NCBI RefSeq assembly: GCF_000023865.1
Contig: NC_013159.1
Span: forward strand, 2,754,001-2,818,000
Source: Saccharomonospora viridis DSM 43017
GTDB lineage: Bacteria; Actinomycetota; Actinomycetes; Mycobacteriales; Pseudonocardiaceae
Length of the DNA: 64,000 nt
Direction of reading: 5' to 3'
Shown piece by piece: positions 18,396 through 46,872 of the stretch. Under the pieces are notes generated by a model. It searched no databases. It had not been told where the DNA came from and was given only the letters and a program-made list of their open reading frames with translations. The position numbers and the translations under genes were made by a program. How positions within the stretch are numbered: the stretch's first letter is position 1; each line of letters starts with the position of its first letter.

Positions 18396-21257
18396 TCAGG
18401 CTCCTTGCAACAAAGGAGCCAGGAACTGTCCGGTGTAGCTGCCTTCGGTGGCCGCCACCTCCTCGGGAGTGCCCTCCGCGATGACGGTGCCACCCCCCGA
18501 ACCACCCTCCGGACCGAGGTCGATGATCCAGTCCGAGGTCTTGATGACGTCGAGGTTGTGCTCGATCACGATGACCGTGTTGCCCTTGTCCACAAGACCG
18601 TGGATCACGTCGAGCAGCCTACGGATGTCCTCGAAGTGCAGGCCCGTCGTGGGTTCGTCGAGGATGTAGACCGTCTTGCCCGTCGAACGCTTCTGCAGCT
18701 CGCTCGCCAGCTTGACGCGTTGGGCCTCACCACCCGACAGGGTCGGCGCGGGCTGCCCCAGCCGCACATAACCGAGACCGACGTCGACCAGGGTCTGAAG
18801 ATGCCGGTGGATGGCCTTGATCGGTTCGAAGAACTCGGCGGCCTCCTCGATCGGCATGTCAAGGACCTCGGCGACCGTTTTGCCCTTGTAGTGGACTTCC
18901 AACGTCTCGCGGTTGTAACGGGCTCCCTTGCAGACCTCGCACGGCACGTACACGTCCGGCAGGAAGTTCATCTCGATCTTGATCGTGCCGTCACCCGCGC
19001 AGGCCTCGCAGCGCCCACCCTTGACGTTGAACGAGAACCGACCCGGCTGATACCCCCGCACCTTCGCCTCGGTGGTGGAGGCGAACAACTTGCGGATGTG
19101 GTCCCACACCCCGGTGTAGGTCGCGGGATTCGACCGTGGCGTCCGGCCGATGGGCGACTGATCGACGCGGACGAGCTTGTCCACGTGTTGCAACCCGTTG
19201 ACCCGCTTGTGCCTGCCGGGCACCTGCCTGGCGTTGTTGAGCTTGTTCGCCAACACCGTGGCCAGGATGTCGTTGACCAGTGTGGACTTCCCGGAGCCGG
19301 ACACGCCGGTCACCGAGATCAGACACCCCAGCGGGAACGAGACGTCGATGTTGCGCAGGTTGTTCTCCCTGGCGCCGACCACGGTCAACTGACGTTTGCG
19401 GTCCACCGGCCTGCGCGTGGCGGGCAACGCGATCTCCTTGCGGCCGGCCAGGTAATCCCCTGTCAGCGACTTCTTGTTCCGTAGCAGCTTCTCGAACGGA
19501 CCGCTGTGTACGATCCGACCGCCGTGCTGTCCGGCGCCCGGGCCGATGTCGACGACCCAGTCACTGGCACGGATCGTGTCCTCGTCGTGTTCGACGACGA
19601 TCAGGGTGTTACCGAGGTCCCGCAGCTTCGTCAACGTCTCGATGAGGCGGTGGTTGTCGCGTTGGTGCAACCCGATGGAAGGTTCGTCCAGCACGTACAA
19701 CACACCCACGAGGCCGGACCCGATCTGGGTGGCCAGGCGGATGCGTTGCGCTTCACCGCCGGACAGGGTGCCCGCCGCCCGGTCGAGGGACAGGTAGTCC
19801 AGACCGACGTCCAGCAGGAAACGAAGCCGGGCCTGGATCTCCTTGAGCACGGCACCGGCGATCATGGCCTCCCGGGGACCGAGCTTGAGTCCGTCCAGGA
19901 ACTTCGACGCCTCGGCGACCGACAGCGCGCACACCTCGGCGATGGAGCGTTCCCCGTACTCCTCGTGCTCCAACGTGACGGCGAGGATCTCGGGCTTGAG
20001 CCTGGTCCCCTGGCAGGCCGGGCACGGTATCTCGCGCATGTACCCCTCGTAGCGCTCCCGGGCCCATTCGGATTCCGTCTGCTCGTGGCGTCGCTCCACG
20101 AACGGGATCACGCCCTCGAACGTGGCGTAGTAGGAACGCTCCCGACCGTAGCGGTTGCGGTACCGCACATGCACTTGTTCGTCGACGCCGTACAGGATCG
20201 CCTTCTGGACCCTCGCGGGCAGTTTGCGCCACGGGGTGTCCATCCGGAATCCGAGCGTGGTCGACAACGACTCGAGCAGACGCTGGAAGTACTCCGCGCT
20301 CTGTCCTCCCGACCAGGGTGCGATGGCGCCCTCCGCCAGTGACAGCTCCTCGTCGGGCACCACCATCTCCGGATCGACTTCCTTGCGGATACCGATACCG
20401 GTGCACTCGGGGCAGGCGCCGTAGGGCGCGTTGAACGAGAACGAACGCGGCTCGAAGTCCTCGATCTCCAGCGCATGTCCGTTGGGGCACGCCAGGTGCT
20501 CGGAGAACCCGCGGACACGGTGGGGGTCGTCCTCGGGCAGGTCCACGAACTCCAGCTCGACCAGGCCGTCGGCCAACCGCAGCGCGGTCTCGATCGAGTC
20601 GGTGAGCCGTTGTTTGGCGCTGGCTTTGACCGTCAGTCGGTCGACGACCACGCCGATGTCGTGCTTTTCCTGCTTCTTCAGCTTCGGCGGATCGGACAAC
20701 CGGTGGACGACGCCGTCGACCCGCACGCGCGCGTAGCCCTGCTGCTGCAGGTTCGCGAACAGATCGACGTACTCCCCTTTGCGTCCCCGCACCACCGGGG
20801 CGATCACTTGGAACCGGGTGCCCTCCTCCAGTTCGAGGACCTGGTCGACGATCTGCTGCGGCGTCTGTTTGCTGATCGGTTCGCCGCACCGCGGGCAGTG
20901 TGGCTTACCCGCACGCGCGTAGAGCAGGCGCAGGTAGTCGTAGACCTCGGTGATCGTGCCGACGGTCGAACGGGGGTTGCGGGACGTGGACTTCTGATCG
21001 ATCGACACGGCCGGCGACAGTCCCTCGATGAACTCCACATCCGGCTTGTCCATCTGACCGAGGAACTGCCGCGCGTACGCCGACAGCGACTCCACATAGC
21101 GCCGCTGGCCTTCCGCGAAGATGGTGTCGAACGCAAGACTCGATTTACCGGAACCGGAAAGGCCGGTGAACACGATCAGGCTGTCCCTGGGCAGATCGAG
21201 GTCGACGCCGCGCAGGTTGTGCTCACGAGCACCGCGGATTACTAGGCGATCAGCCAC
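18396..21257 (-). CDS. uvrA: Excinuclease ABC subunit A
   Basis: Damage-recognition ATPase of nucleotide excision repair, 953 aa. The start chosen is the GTG at 21257 ([18 protein letters not shown]) with GAAGGGA upstream. Two ABC ATPase modules are visible with Walker A loops GLSGSGKSS and GVSGSGKST and two signature motifs ([24 protein letters not shown]). Zinc-binding Cys pairs occur in CPRCGEP, CPNG...CPECTG and CEACAGDG...CEVCKGAR. A consensus DNA-damage promoter lies upstream. The 3' end is convergent with the dicarboxylate carrier. Confidence 0.98.
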
Positions 21258-21308: not shown

Positions 21309-21331
21309 ATGCTAGGTCCCACCACCGACAA
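21309..21331 (-). promoter_or_regulatory. RecA-independent DNA-damage (PafBC-type) promoter of uvrA
   Basis: On the minus strand TTGTCGGTG, 8 nt, TAGCAT is an exact match to the mycobacterial RecA-NDp consensus tTGTCRgtg-N8-TAnnnT, which PafBC (formerly ClpR) uses. Transcription would start near 21302, giving a leader of about 45 nt. The element overlaps the end of the upstream acyltransferase gene. The match is seen; regulation is inferred. Confidence 0.8.
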
Positions 21332-35092: not shown

Positions 35093-35112
35093 CGGTTCAC
35101 GCCCCCGTCACT
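35088..35112. terminator. Bidirectional hairpin between VOC gene and uvrB
   Basis: AGTGACGG (35088-35095) and CCGTCACT (35105-35112) form an 8-bp stem with a 9-nt loop between two convergent genes; its arms include or touch both stop codons. Confidence 0.6.
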
Positions 35113-37271
35113 TATTGCACTCCCGCCTCGTCCATTCCGCGCAGCTCCTTCTTCAGTTCGGAGATCTCGTCGCGCAGCCGAGCGGCCAGCTCGAATTGCA
35201 GGTCGCGGGCGGCCTGCATCATCTGATCGGTCAATTGTCGGATGAGGTCGGCGAGCTCCGCCCTCGGCATGTTGCTCACGTCGCGGTCGACGAGAACACC
35301 GGAACTGCGTTTCCGGTCGCCCTGCTCCGGCGTCTTGCCCCGCGAGACATTGCGTCCGGAGCCACCGACCTCGATCCCCAGCTCGGAGTCCTCGGCCTCG
35401 GTGTAGACACGGTCGAGGATGTCGGCGATCTTCTTACGCAGGGGCTTCGGATCGATGCCGTGCTCCTTGTTGTACGCGATCTGTTTCTCGCGACGCCGGT
35501 TGGTCTCGTCGATGGCGTAGCGCATCGAATCGGTGATCGTGTCGGCGTACATGTGCACCTGCCCTGACACGTTCCGCGCCGCCCGGCCGATCGTCTGGAT
35601 CAGTGACGTACTGCTGCGGAGGAAGCCCTCCTTGTCGGCGTCGAGGATCGACACGAGCGACACCTCCGGCAGGTCGAGGCCCTCACGCAGGAGGTTGATG
35701 CCGACCAACACGTCGAAGTCACCGGACCGTAGCTGCCGTAGCAGTTCCACCCGGCGTAGCGTGTCGATCTCCGAATGCAGGTACCGCACCCGGATGCCGA
35801 GTTCGAGCAGGTAGTCGGTGAGGTCCTCGGCCATCTTCTTGGTCAGCGTGGTGACCAGCACGCGCTCGTCCTTCTCGGCGCGGATGCGGATCTCGTGCAC
35901 CAGGTCGTCGATCTGCCCCTCCGTGGGCTTGACGATGACCTCAGGGTCGACGAGACCGGTGGGCCGGATGACCTGTTCGACGAACTCCCCGCCCGTCTGG
36001 CTCATCTCGTACGGGCCCGGTGTCGCGGACAGGTACACGGTCTGACCGATGCGGTCGGAGAACTCCTCCCAGGTCAACGGCCGGTTGTCCAGGGCGCTGG
36101 GCAGTCGGAAGCCGTGCTCCACCAGGGTCCGTTTGCGCGACGCGTCGCCTTCGTACATGCCGCCGATCTGCGGCACCGTCACGTGCGATTCGTCGATGAC
36201 CAGCAGGAAGTCCTCGGGGAAGTAGTCGAGCAGCGTCGCCGGCGCCGAACCGGGTTCCCGTCCGTCGATGTGCCGCGAGTAGTTCTCGATGCCGGAGCAG
36301 AACCCGACCTGCCGCATCATCTCGATGTCGTAGGTGGTGCGCATCCGCAGGCGCTGTGCCTCCAGCAGTTTGCCCTGCCTCTCCAGCTTGGCGATCTGCT
36401 CTTCGAGTTCGGCCTCGATACCGCGGATGGCCTTCTCCATGCGCTCCGGGCTCGCGACGTAGTGGGTGGCCGGGAAGATCCGGACCTCGTCGACCTCCCT
36501 GACGATGTCACCGGTCAGTGGATGCAGGTAGTACAGCTTGTCGATCTCGTCGCCGAAGAACTCCACCCGGATGGCGAGCTCCTCGTACGCCGGGATGATC
36601 TCCACGGTGTCGCCCCGGACCCGGAACGTGCCGCGTTCGAACGCGAGGTCGTTACGGGTGTACTGCACGTCCACGAGCGCGCGCAGGAACGTGTCGCGGT
36701 CCACCTCCTCACCCACCGCGAGGCGGGTCGAGCGGTCGAGGTACGACTGCGGGGTGCCGAGGCCGTAGATGCAGGACACGCTGGACACCACGATGACGTC
36801 GCGGCGGGACAGCAGGTTCATCGTCGCCGAGTGGCGAAGCCGCTCCACGTCGTCGTTGATCGAGGAGTCCTTCTCGATGTAGGTGTCGGTCTGGGGGACG
36901 TACGCCTCGGGCTGGTAGTAGTCGTAGTAGCTGACGAAGTACTCCACCGCGTTGTGCGGGAAGAATTCGCGCAGTTCGTTGGCGAGCTGGGCGGCCAGCG
37001 TCTTGTTGTGGGCCATCACGAGAGTGGGTCGCTGGAGCCGTTCGATCAGCCACGCCGTGGTCGCGGACTTGCCCGTACCGGTGGCGCCGAGGAGAACGAC
37101 GTGCTTTTCGCCCGCTTTGATCCTGCGTTCGAGTTCGTCGATGGCCGCGGGCTGGTCGCCGGCGGGCTCGTAGTCACTGACCACCTTGAACCGACCGTCC
37201 GACCGAGGGATCTCGGAGACCGGCCGGAATTCTGAGTGCGCGAGTACGGGGTGTTCGGTCGCGAATGCCAC
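35112..37271 (-). CDS. uvrB: Excinuclease ABC subunit B
   Basis: Helicase-like damage verifier of nucleotide excision repair, 719 aa. The start chosen is the GTG at 37271 ([21 protein letters not shown]); the longer frame adds 40 non-family residues. Walker A is GATGTGKSA; the beta-hairpin region ([20 protein letters not shown]) is intact, as are helicase motifs ([20 protein letters not shown]) and the C-terminal UvrC-binding UVR domain ([20 protein letters not shown]). A PafBC-type promoter ends 7 nt before the GTG, implying a leaderless, damage-inducible transcript. Confidence 0.98.
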
Positions 37272-37278
37272 GTCAACC

Positions 37279-37301
37279 AGGGTATGCGCAAACTCTGACA
37301 G
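37279..37301 (-). promoter_or_regulatory. PafBC-type DNA-damage promoter of uvrB
   Basis: CTGTCAGAG, 8 nt, TACCCT on the minus strand matches tTGTCRgtg-N8-TAnnnT with exact spacing and the TGTCRG core. The -10 box ends 7 nt before the GTG start, so the mRNA should be leaderless. Confidence 0.7.
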
Positions 37302-37536
37302 CGTCGTCCGCCACCGTTGGCTCCCACCGTCGGGTACGTGACGACGCCCCGGTTCGAGCTGGTCCGCTCGTCGGGAGCCTCCGGCGTCCACACCGCCACA
37401 CGTGACCGGAAGCCCACCAGGGCACCATTTCGACCATCCGTTCCTCGCACCATGACCAGGCCGGTGTGACCGCGGGTCCTCACGCGCCTACTCCACACGG
37501 CACTCGCCGTGACCGGGGCTTCGTCGCGGGAAGGTC

Positions 37537-44097: not shown

Positions 44098-44141
44098 CCG
44101 ACCTTCCCCGGTGCTCAATCCGACCTTCCCTGGTGCTCAAT
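44098..44141. repeat. 22-bp tandem duplication at the polA stop
   Basis: Two adjacent 22-bp units (44098-44119 and 44120-44141) differ at one base. The second unit contains the polA stop codon. It looks like a local slippage duplication; it leaves a copy of the gene end just after the gene. Confidence 0.8.
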
Positions 44142-46842
44142 GAGCGGCGTCGTTCCACGAGCGGCCGTACCCCACCGAGACCTCCAACGGCACCGACAGC
44201 TCGTACGCCGACCCCATCTCCCGGCGCACCAGTTCCTCGACCTGGGCGTGCTCGCCGTCGGCGACTTCCAGCATCAGCTCGTCGTGCACCTGCAACAGCA
44301 CCCGGCTGCGCAGTCCGGCTTCGGCGAGTGCCCGGTGCACCCCGAGCATCGCGACCTTGATGATGTCAGCGGCGCTGCCCTGGATCGGGGCGTTGAGGGC
44401 CATGCGTTCGGCCATCTCCCGGCGTTGCCGGTTGGTGCTGGTGAGATCGGGCAGGTAACGACGCCGACCGAAGATCGTCTCGGTGTAGCCCTCCTTGGCC
44501 GCACGCTCCACCACGCTGTGCAGGTAATCACGCACGCCACCGAAGCGCAGGAAGTACTCGTCCATCAGGGCCCGCGCCTCCTCGGTGGAGATGCGCAGCT
44601 GCTGCGACAGCCCGTAGGCGGACAGCCCGTAGGCGAGTCCGTAGTTCATCGCCTTGATCTTCGCGCGCTGTTCGCCGGTGACCTCGGTGGGATCGACGTC
44701 GAACACCCGAGCGGCCGTCGCGGCGTGGAAGTCGAAGCCCGAGTGGAACGCTTCGATGAGCGCCTCGTCGTTCGACAGGTGCGCCATGATGCGCATCTCG
44801 ATCTGGCTGTAGTCGGCGGTCATGAGTTCGGCGTACCCCTCGCCGACCACGAACGCCTCACGGATGCGACGTCCCTCGTCGGTACGCACCGGGATGTTCT
44901 GCAGGTTCGGGTCCACCGACGACAGCCGGCCCGTCGCCGTGATGGTCTGGTGCAGGGTGGTGTGGATACGTCCGTCGTCGGCGACCGCCTTGATCAGGCC
45001 CTCGACCGTACTGCGCAGCTTCGTCGCGTCGCGATGTTCGAGCAGGTACTGCAGGAACGGGTGTTCCGTCTTCTCATACAGCGTCTGCAGCGCGTCGGCG
45101 TCGGTGGTGTAGCCGGTCTTGGTGCGCTTGGTCTTGGGCATGCCCAGCTCGTCGAACAGCACCACCTGCAACTGCTTCGGCGAGCCGAGGTTGATCTGCT
45201 TGCCGATCACCGAGTACGCCTGCTCGGTCGCCTGCTTCACGCGGTTCGCATAGTGCGCTTCGAGCTCGGTGAGCACGTCGATGTCCACGGCGATGCCGGC
45301 GGCCTCCAGGTCGGTGATCATCGACAGCAGCGGGAGCTCGATGTCGGCCAGCAGTGTGGTGGCGCCGATGGCGGCGAGTTCGGCGGACAACGCGGACGAC
45401 AGCTCCAGGACCGCCCGAGCCCGCACCAGCTCCCGTCGCACGATCTCGTTGTCGGAGTCGGTGTCGAGCAACGACAACTGCCCGTCACCCTCCACGCCCT
45501 CGGAACGCAATTCCTTGCCCAGGTAGCGCAACACGAGGTCGTCCAACTTGAACGACCGCTGTCCCGGTCGGACGAGATACGCGGCGAGTTCGGTGTCCAT
45601 CACCAGTCCGGCGAGGCGCCAGCCTCGGGAGCGCAGGCCGTGCAGCGCCTTCTTCAGCGAGTGCCCCACCTTGTGGATGTTCTCGTCGGCCAACCATTCG
45701 CCGAGCGCGCGTTCGTCGTCCTCGGTCAACGTCGTGACGTCGAGGTAGGCACCCTCACCGTTGGGGGCGGCCAACGCCACGGACTGCACGTCGGACGTCA
45801 CCGACGCGCCGGTGACGGAGAAGGCCAGTCCGACGGTCGTGCCGCCGCTGGCGTGCTGGGACAGCCACTCGCCCACCGTGCCGGGCTGCAACGCCGCGCC
45901 CTCGACCTCGAACCCGGAGTCGGCCTCCGGCTCCGTGCTGGACAACGACGCGAACAGCCGATCGCGCAGCACCCGGAATTCCAGCTCGTCGAACAGTCGG
46001 TGCACCGCGTCGCGGTCCCACGGTTTCAAGGCGAGGTCGTCCGGCGTGACCTCCAGCGGCACGTCGCGCACCAGTTCCGTGAGTTGCCGGTTGAGCATCA
46101 CCGAGTCGAGGTGCGAACGCAGCGCCTCACCGACCTTGCCCTTCACCTCGTCGACCCGGTCGATGAGCTCGCCGAGGGAACCGAACTGCCTGATCCATTT
46201 CGCCGCCGTCTTCTCGCCCACACCGGGAATGCCCGGCAGGTTGTCGGACGGATCACCTCGCAACGCGGCGAAGTCCGGGTACTGCGCGGGCGACAGGCCG
46301 TACTTCTCCTGCACGCCCTCGGGGTCGAAACGCACCAGATCGGACACGCCCTTGCGCGGATAGAGGACGGTCACCGAGTCGGTGACCAGTTGCAGGGCGT
46401 CCCGGTCGCCGGTGCAGATCAGCACTTCGTAGTCGTCGCCCGCCTTCGCGGTGAGCGTGGCGATGACGTCGTCGGCCTCGTAGCCCTCCACGGCCAGAAC
46501 CGGGATCGACAGGGCTCCGAGGACGTCCTTGATGAGCTCCACCTGGCCTTTGAAGTCGTCGGGTGTGGCGAGGCGGTTGGCCTTGTAGTCGGCGAACGTC
46601 TCCGAGCGGAACGTCTTCCGGGACACGTCGAAGGCCACGGCCACATGCGTGGGGGCCTCGTCGCGGAGCAGGTTGATCAGCATCGACGTGAACCCGAACA
46701 CCGCGTTGGTGACCTGCCCGGTGGAGGTTCTGAACCGGTCGGCGGGCACCGCGAAGAAGGCCCGGTAGGCCATCGAGTGTCCGTCGATGAGCAACAGCCG
46801 GGGTGTGTCGTGCGCTACGGAGGTGTTCTGCTTGGAGCTCAC
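44137..46842 (-). CDS. polA: DNA polymerase I
   Basis: Repair and Okazaki-fragment polymerase, 901 aa. The start is the GTG at 46842 (M-SSKQNTSVAHDTPRLLLIDG); a longer frame to 47109 overlaps the divergent thioesterase gene and is rejected. Residues about 1-300 form the 5'-3' exonuclease (GDPSDNLPGIPGVGEKTA). The polymerase domain carries motif A (D677 in DYSQIEMR), motif B (RAKIKAMNYGLAYG) and motif C (VHDE). The middle 3'-5' exonuclease-like domain lacks the acidic DxE motif, so no proofreading is expected, as in other actinobacterial PolA. A PafBC-type promoter ends 7 nt upstream. Confidence 0.97.
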   Translation of the reverse strand: MSSKQNTSVAHDTPRLLLIDGHSMAYRAFFAVPADRFRTSTGQVTNAVFGFTSMLINLLRDEAPTHVAVAFDVSRKTFRSETFADYKANRLATPDDFKGQVELIKDVLGALSIPVLAVEGYEADDVIATLTAKAGDDYEVLICTGDRDALQLVTDSVTVLYPRKGVSDLVRFDPEGVQEKYGLSPAQYPDFAALRGDPSDNLPGIPGVGEKTAAKWIRQFGSLGELIDRVDEVKGKVGEALRSHLDSVMLNRQLTELVRDVPLEVTPDDLALKPWDRDAVHRLFDELEFRVLRDRLFASLSSTEPEADSGFEVEGAALQPGTVGEWLSQHASGGTTVGLAFSVTGASVTSDVQSVALAAPNGEGAYLDVTTLTEDDERALGEWLADENIHKVGHSLKKALHGLRSRGWRLAGLVMDTELAAYLVRPGQRSFKLDDLVLRYLGKELRSEGVEGDGQLSLLDTDSDNEIVRRELVRARAVLELSSALSAELAAIGATTLLADIELPLLSMITDLEAAGIAVDIDVLTELEAHYANRVKQATEQAYSVIGKQINLGSPKQLQVVLFDELGMPKTKRTKTGYTTDADALQTLYEKTEHPFLQYLLEHRDATKLRSTVEGLIKAVADDGRIHTTLHQTITATGRLSSVDPNLQNIPVRTDEGRRIREAFVVGEGYAELMTADYSQIEMRIMAHLSNDEALIEAFHSGFDFHAATAARVFDVDPTEVTGEQRAKIKAMNYGLAYGLSAYGLSQQLRISTEEARALMDEYFLRFGGVRDYLHSVVERAAKEGYTETIFGRRRYLPDLTSTNRQRREMAERMALNAPIQGSAADIIKVAMLGVHRALAEAGLRSRVLLQVHDELMLEVADGEHAQVEELVRREMGSAYELSVPLEVSVGYGRSWNDAAH

Positions 46843-46849
46843 GCCCGTG

Positions 46850-46872
46850 AGTCTAGGGTGAGGGTCCGACAG
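46850..46872 (-). promoter_or_regulatory. PafBC-type promoter of polA
   Basis: CTGTCGGAC, 8 nt, TAGACT on the minus strand keeps the TGTCRG core and exact spacing of the RecA-independent damage promoter. The -10 box ends 7 nt before the GTG start, indicating a leaderless mRNA. Confidence 0.6.

Follow-up and report, generated by a model that had tools for sequence, protein, structure and literature searches.

Putative PafBC-type promoters upstream of uvrA, uvrB and polA, and of defence operons, in an actinomycete genome

The repair genes uvrA, uvrB and polA are each preceded by a PafBC-type site in the 64-kb window studied here (the term denotes the whole stretch of DNA analysed). All three sites lie on the minus strand with an identical spacing, and we put the probability that they are PafBC-dependent (RecA-NDp) promoters at about 0.9. 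A previous sequence-only reading had described the three motifs, their orientation and their common spacing, and had placed the -10 box 7 nt ahead of the start codon in uvrB and polA; inspection of the window sequence confirmed that this promoter observation is correct in each respect. The uvrA site (21309..21331) consists of TTGTCGGTG as the -26 element, an N8 spacer and the -10 box TAGCAT. It is followed after 51 nt by the GTG of uvrA (18396..21257, minus strand), a start chosen to fit relatives. The uvrB site (37279..37301) reads CTGTCAGAG, N8 and TACCCT, while that of polA (46850..46872) reads CTGTCGGAC, N8 and TAGACT. In both cases, the GTG of the gene is found exactly 7 nt further on (uvrB, 35112..37271; polA, 44137..46842; both minus strand). 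The gene identities were obtained from NCBIfam equivalog models, with excinuclease ABC subunit A (NF001503, TIGR00630), excinuclease ABC subunit B (NF003673, TIGR00631) and DNA polymerase I (NF004397, TIGR00593) all scoring above cut-off.

The core motif TGTCR-N11-TANNNT has exactly three matches in the window, corresponding to the uvrA, uvrB and polA sites. The expected mean is 0.63-0.87 using Markov models of order 1-3, with single simulated windows containing up to 3-5 matches. When a longer consensus was used with up to two mismatches, 29 window matches were found compared with 13.7 expected, mostly away from the three genes, and hence a loose match to the consensus carries little weight. 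The uvrA site is the sole exact match of the three to this longer consensus, with one mismatch for uvrB and two for polA. The -26 elements of uvrB and polA (TGTCAGAG and TGTCGGAC, respectively) are a poorer fit to TGTCRGTG than that of uvrA, and the uvrB element is frequently TGTCGGTG among relatives.

A search of the genome for the regulator genes, the presence of which the sequence-only reading had left to be checked, revealed three WYL-family proteins, two of which are encoded by adjacent genes on the same strand. Both members of the adjacent pair match 6sj9, deposited as a fusion of PafB and PafC (E 4.3e-48 and 2.5e-45), with stronger matches (E 5.7e-88 and 4.7e-83) to two chains of 7p5x, one of them named PafC. 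We take 7p5x to be a mycobacterial RNA polymerase complex. On the basis of these matches, the genome has PafB and PafC orthologues in the form of an adjacent pafB-pafC pair. A PafBC-type site (2378570-2378591, minus strand) is also located directly ahead of a proteasome ATPase gene, approximately 11 kb from pafBC.

In mycobacteria, PafBC is reported to be bound by single-stranded DNA at its WYL domains and thereupon to associate with RNA polymerase carrying the housekeeping sigma factor. The -26 element is recognised by PafB, and domain 4 of sigma, the part that normally touches the -35 box, is contacted by PafC (PMC11804915). If this mechanism operates here, TGTCR would occupy positions of approximately -28 to -24, counted from a transcription start 7 nt past TANNNT, and uvrA, uvrB and polA would be turned on jointly without LexA cleavage. 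The same motif is located before recA, radA, dinB, ligA, pcrA and other repair genes, as well as three defence operons.

We searched the genome (one contig of 4,308,349 bp) for the exact core. At the N11 spacing 37 sites were found, compared with a mean of 17.0 over the ten other spacings between 6 and 16 (207 sites in total for spacings 6-16, with 14 at N13), an excess with a Poisson probability of 1.8e-05. A reversed-pattern control yielded 44 sites versus the 37 real sites, and in view of this lack of excess the motif count was rejected as proof. The reversed pattern is an unfair control, as it swaps TA for AT, and the other spacings were taken as control instead. The number of motif sites is by itself weak evidence; it is the downstream genes and the conservation that convince.

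The best downstream frame was scanned at 31 of the 37 N11 sites, including the three in the window; the six left unscanned lack a credible gene (L003, L005, L014, the minus-strand site of L015, L026 and L028). Repair or recombination genes were found downstream of 10 of the 31 scanned sites as opposed to 0 of 20 scanned wrong-spacing sites (Fisher 0.0039), where the controls derive from 42 sites that comprise the listed part of the other-spacing matches and the 14 N13 sites rather than a random draw, the other 22 being without a credible downstream frame or left out. An enrichment before repair genes, proposed as a check on the PafBC assignment, is thus borne out. In addition to uvrA, uvrB and polA, the repair genes include recA, radA, NAD-dependent ligA, a PcrA/UvrD-type helicase gene (pcrA), the polymerase IV gene dinB, and genes for a DEDD exonuclease with a UvrC-like part and a RecB/AddB-like PD-(D/E)XK nuclease. 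A GyrB-type topoisomerase gene brings the DNA-metabolism genes to eleven. Other N11 sites precede Wadjet jetA, two cas3 genes and the proteasome ATPase gene, or genes not evidently connected with damage (a P450, pstS, rho, alanine dehydrogenase and others). Approximately two thirds of the scanned genes following N11 sites have no repair role, and part of the 37 sites are probably chance matches. Among the controls, two TGTCG-N8-TAAGGT sites (L245 and L247) are located 7 nt ahead of a start codon, of a response regulator gene and a ribonuclease III gene, respectively, and perhaps represent another promoter class.

Conservation was surveyed in 60 family genomes per gene, of which the best 30 loci, own locus included, were read. 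The motif was present at 29 of 30 uvrA, 30 of 30 uvrB and 28 of 30 polA loci (87/90). Across the same upstream stretches, the only other spacing (6-16) observed was N10, at three uvrA loci, and no motif was found on the opposite strand. The 40 nt further upstream of the motif have only 0.3-0.4 bits per column, indicating near-random flanks. The high information content of the core columns (1.9 bits) was rejected as proof; the loci had been chosen by motif, making this true by construction. Evidential weight therefore resides only in the counts of motif-bearing loci and the low flank similarity. Within the family the -10 box is gene-specific, being mostly TAGCAT for uvrA, TACCCT or a close variant for uvrB, and TAGACT for polA. 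Gene-specific spacer and -10 bases beyond the shared motif are kept across the family, most strongly for polA (CACCCTAGACTC), and the mean identity of free positions within genes is 0.64, compared with a maximum of 0.505 in 500 label shuffles. We read these private bases as putative gene-specific tuning of promoter strength, with shared ancestry contributing.

Beyond the family, a broad named uvrB set was analysed (80 loci, 77 with upstream sequence, with groups assigned from record titles). The motif occurs at 29 of 50 actinobacterial loci versus 1 of 27 others, and the remaining 21 actinobacterial loci are without it. Motif-bearing loci include Nocardia, Mycolicibacterium, Streptomyces, Nocardioides, Arthrobacter and Acidimicrobiales, while no motif was found at the Corynebacterium, Bifidobacterium and Rothia uvrB loci of this set. 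A class-wide comparison of polA revealed the motif at 13 of 28 loci with at least 100 nt upstream, plus one locus with less. Conservation at a fixed position with N11 spacing is found within the family and is partial across the class.

These data bear on the alternative that survives best, namely that the three sites are housekeeping sigma promoters of the ordinary kind, each with a TANNNT box, the upstream TGTC being due to chance or to a generic element without PafBC. TANNNT is a general actinobacterial -10 box, and a genome motif count not above the reversed-pattern control would also fit this view. Against it, 87 of 90 family loci hold the whole motif at one spacing next to near-random flanks, and repair genes follow 10 of 31 sites and none of the 20 controls; we consider this alternative improbable. 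The assignment of the uvrA, uvrB and polA promoters to the PafBC type is instead supported by both the pafBC pair and the concentration of repair genes. Induction by another regulator with a similar box appears less probable still. Candidates for such a role are ClgR, reported at the mycobacterial recA P1 promoter (cited in PMC5656591), and the remaining one of the three WYL proteins (at 3964725), but the RecA-NDp motif was later assigned to PafBC on the basis of the M. smegmatis regulon and binding-site data (PMC8223512).

No exact GAAC-N4-GTTC box is present at the uvrA, uvrB or polA promoters. The nearest match with one mismatch upstream of a start is at 37432-37443, approximately 160 nt ahead of the uvrB start, and one-mismatch matches in the window are at background level (35 versus 28.9). 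The statement that the three genes lack a LexA-type box therefore holds for exact boxes. In the case of recA both elements are found, with an SOS box at 3009655, some 60 nt upstream of the PafBC-type site, and recA is under both pathways in mycobacteria (PMC8223512). Despite this arrangement at recA, and the dual control reported for mycobacterial uvrA (PMC8223512), the absence of exact boxes and the background level of near matches make it very unlikely that uvrA, uvrB and polA are LexA (SOS) genes for which the PafBC-type motif is secondary. Just after pcrA (484618-484690; L004:3919-3990), another PafBC-type site is followed within a few bases by an SOS box. The ORF behind this double site has no Pfam match and looks like a doubly controlled gene.

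The sequence-only reading had extended the PafBC assignment to excision repair as a whole, viewed as one PafBC regulon. This fits uvrA, uvrB, pcrA, polA and ligA, but not the gene taken as mfd, where the 300 nt on either side of the first candidate start contain no site matching 7 or more of the 8 core bases. In addition, among the exact core sites of the genome, to which this search was confined, none has uvrC as its downstream gene. A single regulon for excision repair is thus too broad a description.

The distance between promoter and start codon is strikingly uniform for two of the three genes. Among the family loci, the start codon is located 6-8 nt past the -10 box at 28 of 30 uvrB and 27 of 30 polA loci, and at none of the uvrA loci. 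The same distance applies to 29 of 30 motif-bearing loci in the named uvrB set, and to all 14 motif-bearing polA loci found class-wide. With a PafBC start 7 nt past the -10 box, transcription would begin within approximately 1 nt of the start codon, and the uvrB and polA mRNAs are therefore predicted to be leaderless, initiating at or next to the GTG, with a leadered mRNA predicted for uvrA. Within the genome itself, the start codon of a credible gene is found 5-10 nt past the -10 box at 14 of 37 N11 sites versus 2 of 42 wrong-spacing sites (Fisher 0.00044). These counts depend on a coding-score threshold of 0.15, chosen after a first run at 0.25 (10/37 versus 0/33); at 0.15 the comparison with N9, N10, N12 and N13 sites is 14/37 versus 0/33, and addition of nine N8 sites gives the 2/42. 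Thresholds of 0.0 and 0.1 both led to 14/37 N11 versus 1/33 wrong-spacing sites.

The recA start is located 61 nt from the -10 box of its PafBC-type site. At a mapped mycobacterial RecA-NDp promoter, that of Rv1955, the mapped 5' end precedes the start codon by approximately 50 nt (PMC2897130); this leadered mRNA demonstrates that leaderless transcription is not a rule of the RecA-NDp promoter class. One study of a single reporter pair in M. tuberculosis reported that, under stress, translation of the leaderless kind is more stable than that of the Shine-Dalgarno kind (PMC8485053). Leaderless PafBC promoters would allow repair proteins still to be made under stress, and this stability may be the reason for the build of these repair genes. 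Among the titles and abstracts of the literature searched, we found none treating leaderless mRNAs in connection with PafBC or with mycobacterial uvrB.

Five of the 37 N11 sites cluster within 1756-1797 kb, a region that holds JetA and JetC of the anti-plasmid system Wadjet along with two CRISPR-Cas operons of type I-E. Two of these are intragenic, and three are located before jetA and the two cas3 genes. The jetA site (1776297-1776318, plus strand; L016) lies 9 nt ahead of the ATG. A survey of 150 family genomes yielded 13 with a JetA match (L255-L267). All five loci from the same genus, the own one among them, carry the exact motif, and 8-9 nt separate the -10 box from the ATG. JetA is 88-100% identical among these loci, and the 22-mer is on average 0.89 identical compared with 0.54 for the 45 nt upstream. 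At the eight other loci, the motif is found on the gene strand at two (L261 and L265, both with a distant JetA), approximately 30 and 94 nt ahead of the extrapolated start, and is missing from six.

The second site precedes a type I-E operon in which cas3 is the first gene (cas3-B; 1796114-1796135, minus strand; L017). The exact motif was found at 8 of the 11 most similar family loci (L268-L278, own included), 64-124 nt before the protein match, and the flanks of the motif-bearing loci are mutually 0.30-0.32 identical, which is near random. We take cas3-B as the strongest defence case, because such flanks leave little room for mere ancestry. A more divergent Cas3 branch has the motif at 0 of 19 loci anywhere in the stretch examined. 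Class-wide, a close Cas3 match occurs in 22 of 394 genomes; outside the own locus, five loci in two other families (L300-L303 and L311) carry the motif, comprising all four from a single other genus and the only one from a third family. None of the 16 loci in the remaining families has it, and this patchy spread argues against a universal rule. Core conservation at cas3 and jetA was rejected as proof, as the loci were picked by motif and the result is true by construction. The site at the other cas3 gene (cas3-A) is present in the one congener examined, where the whole region is near-identical and the comparison is uninformative. Three CRISPR arrays with periods of approximately 61 nt (L254:11251-11831, L252:17887-19657 and L253:9013-10831) lie beside the two type I-E operons, and six more repeat copies are located at L254:1310-1645.

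The PafBC-type sites ahead of the cas3 operon and jetA suggest damage-inducible immunity. We lean towards a view in which PafBC also commands immunity in some actinomycetes, acting on type I-E CRISPR-Cas and Wadjet via conserved PafBC promoters, and in which many PafBC promoters are leaderless by design. PafBC would be activated by single-stranded DNA, whether this arises through damage, through the replication of a phage or on the entry of a plasmid, such that defence and repair are armed together. Among the papers listed on PafBC with CRISPR-Cas or Wadjet, on WYL with cas3, on mitomycin C with CRISPR-Cas in Streptomyces and on mitomycin with Wadjet, none reports this in its title or abstract opening. 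Should the defence proposal be true, damage sensing would be tied through a single promoter type to both CRISPR and Wadjet immunity, and single-stranded DNA would serve as their common alarm signal.

The uvrA, uvrB and polA promoters belong to a known kind, RecA-NDp/PafBC, which extends beyond mycobacteria and includes UvrABC in the M. smegmatis regulon (PMC8223512). They share with the mycobacterial system the TGTCR element and its spacing to TANNNT (Gamulin 2004 and Mueller 2018, as cited in PMC5656591 and PMC8223512), and both systems have uvrA, uvrB and recA as targets and a PafB and PafC pair. In the portions of PMC5656591, PMC8223512 and PMC8151990 available to us, which do not extend to the regulon tables, polA is not named as a PafBC target. 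In contrast to the mycobacterial system, uvrA has no SOS box nearby in this genome, and sites are also located before CRISPR-Cas and Wadjet. Through the present analysis, a regulon studied mainly in mycobacteria is extended to a further actinomycete, for which candidate targets are listed, and the near-invariant distance from promoter to start codon at uvrB and polA predicts leaderless repair mRNAs. The RecA-NDp promoters of Streptomyces (SCO6735 and recA) are of the same type and likewise non-mycobacterial, SCO6735 being a different gene, and a RecA-NDp-type promoter is reported to precede numerous damage genes in Actinomycetales (PMC5087735); the available part of that paper does not state the leader length of uvrB or polA. 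With respect to defence, the closest parallel is the BrxR family of WYL-domain regulators, which are tied to phage-defence islands with Wadjet among the neighbouring systems (PMC9122601). The genes for BrxR homologues adjoin the defence genes, whereas the regulator predicted here is the global damage activator PafBC, encoded some 570-590 kb away.
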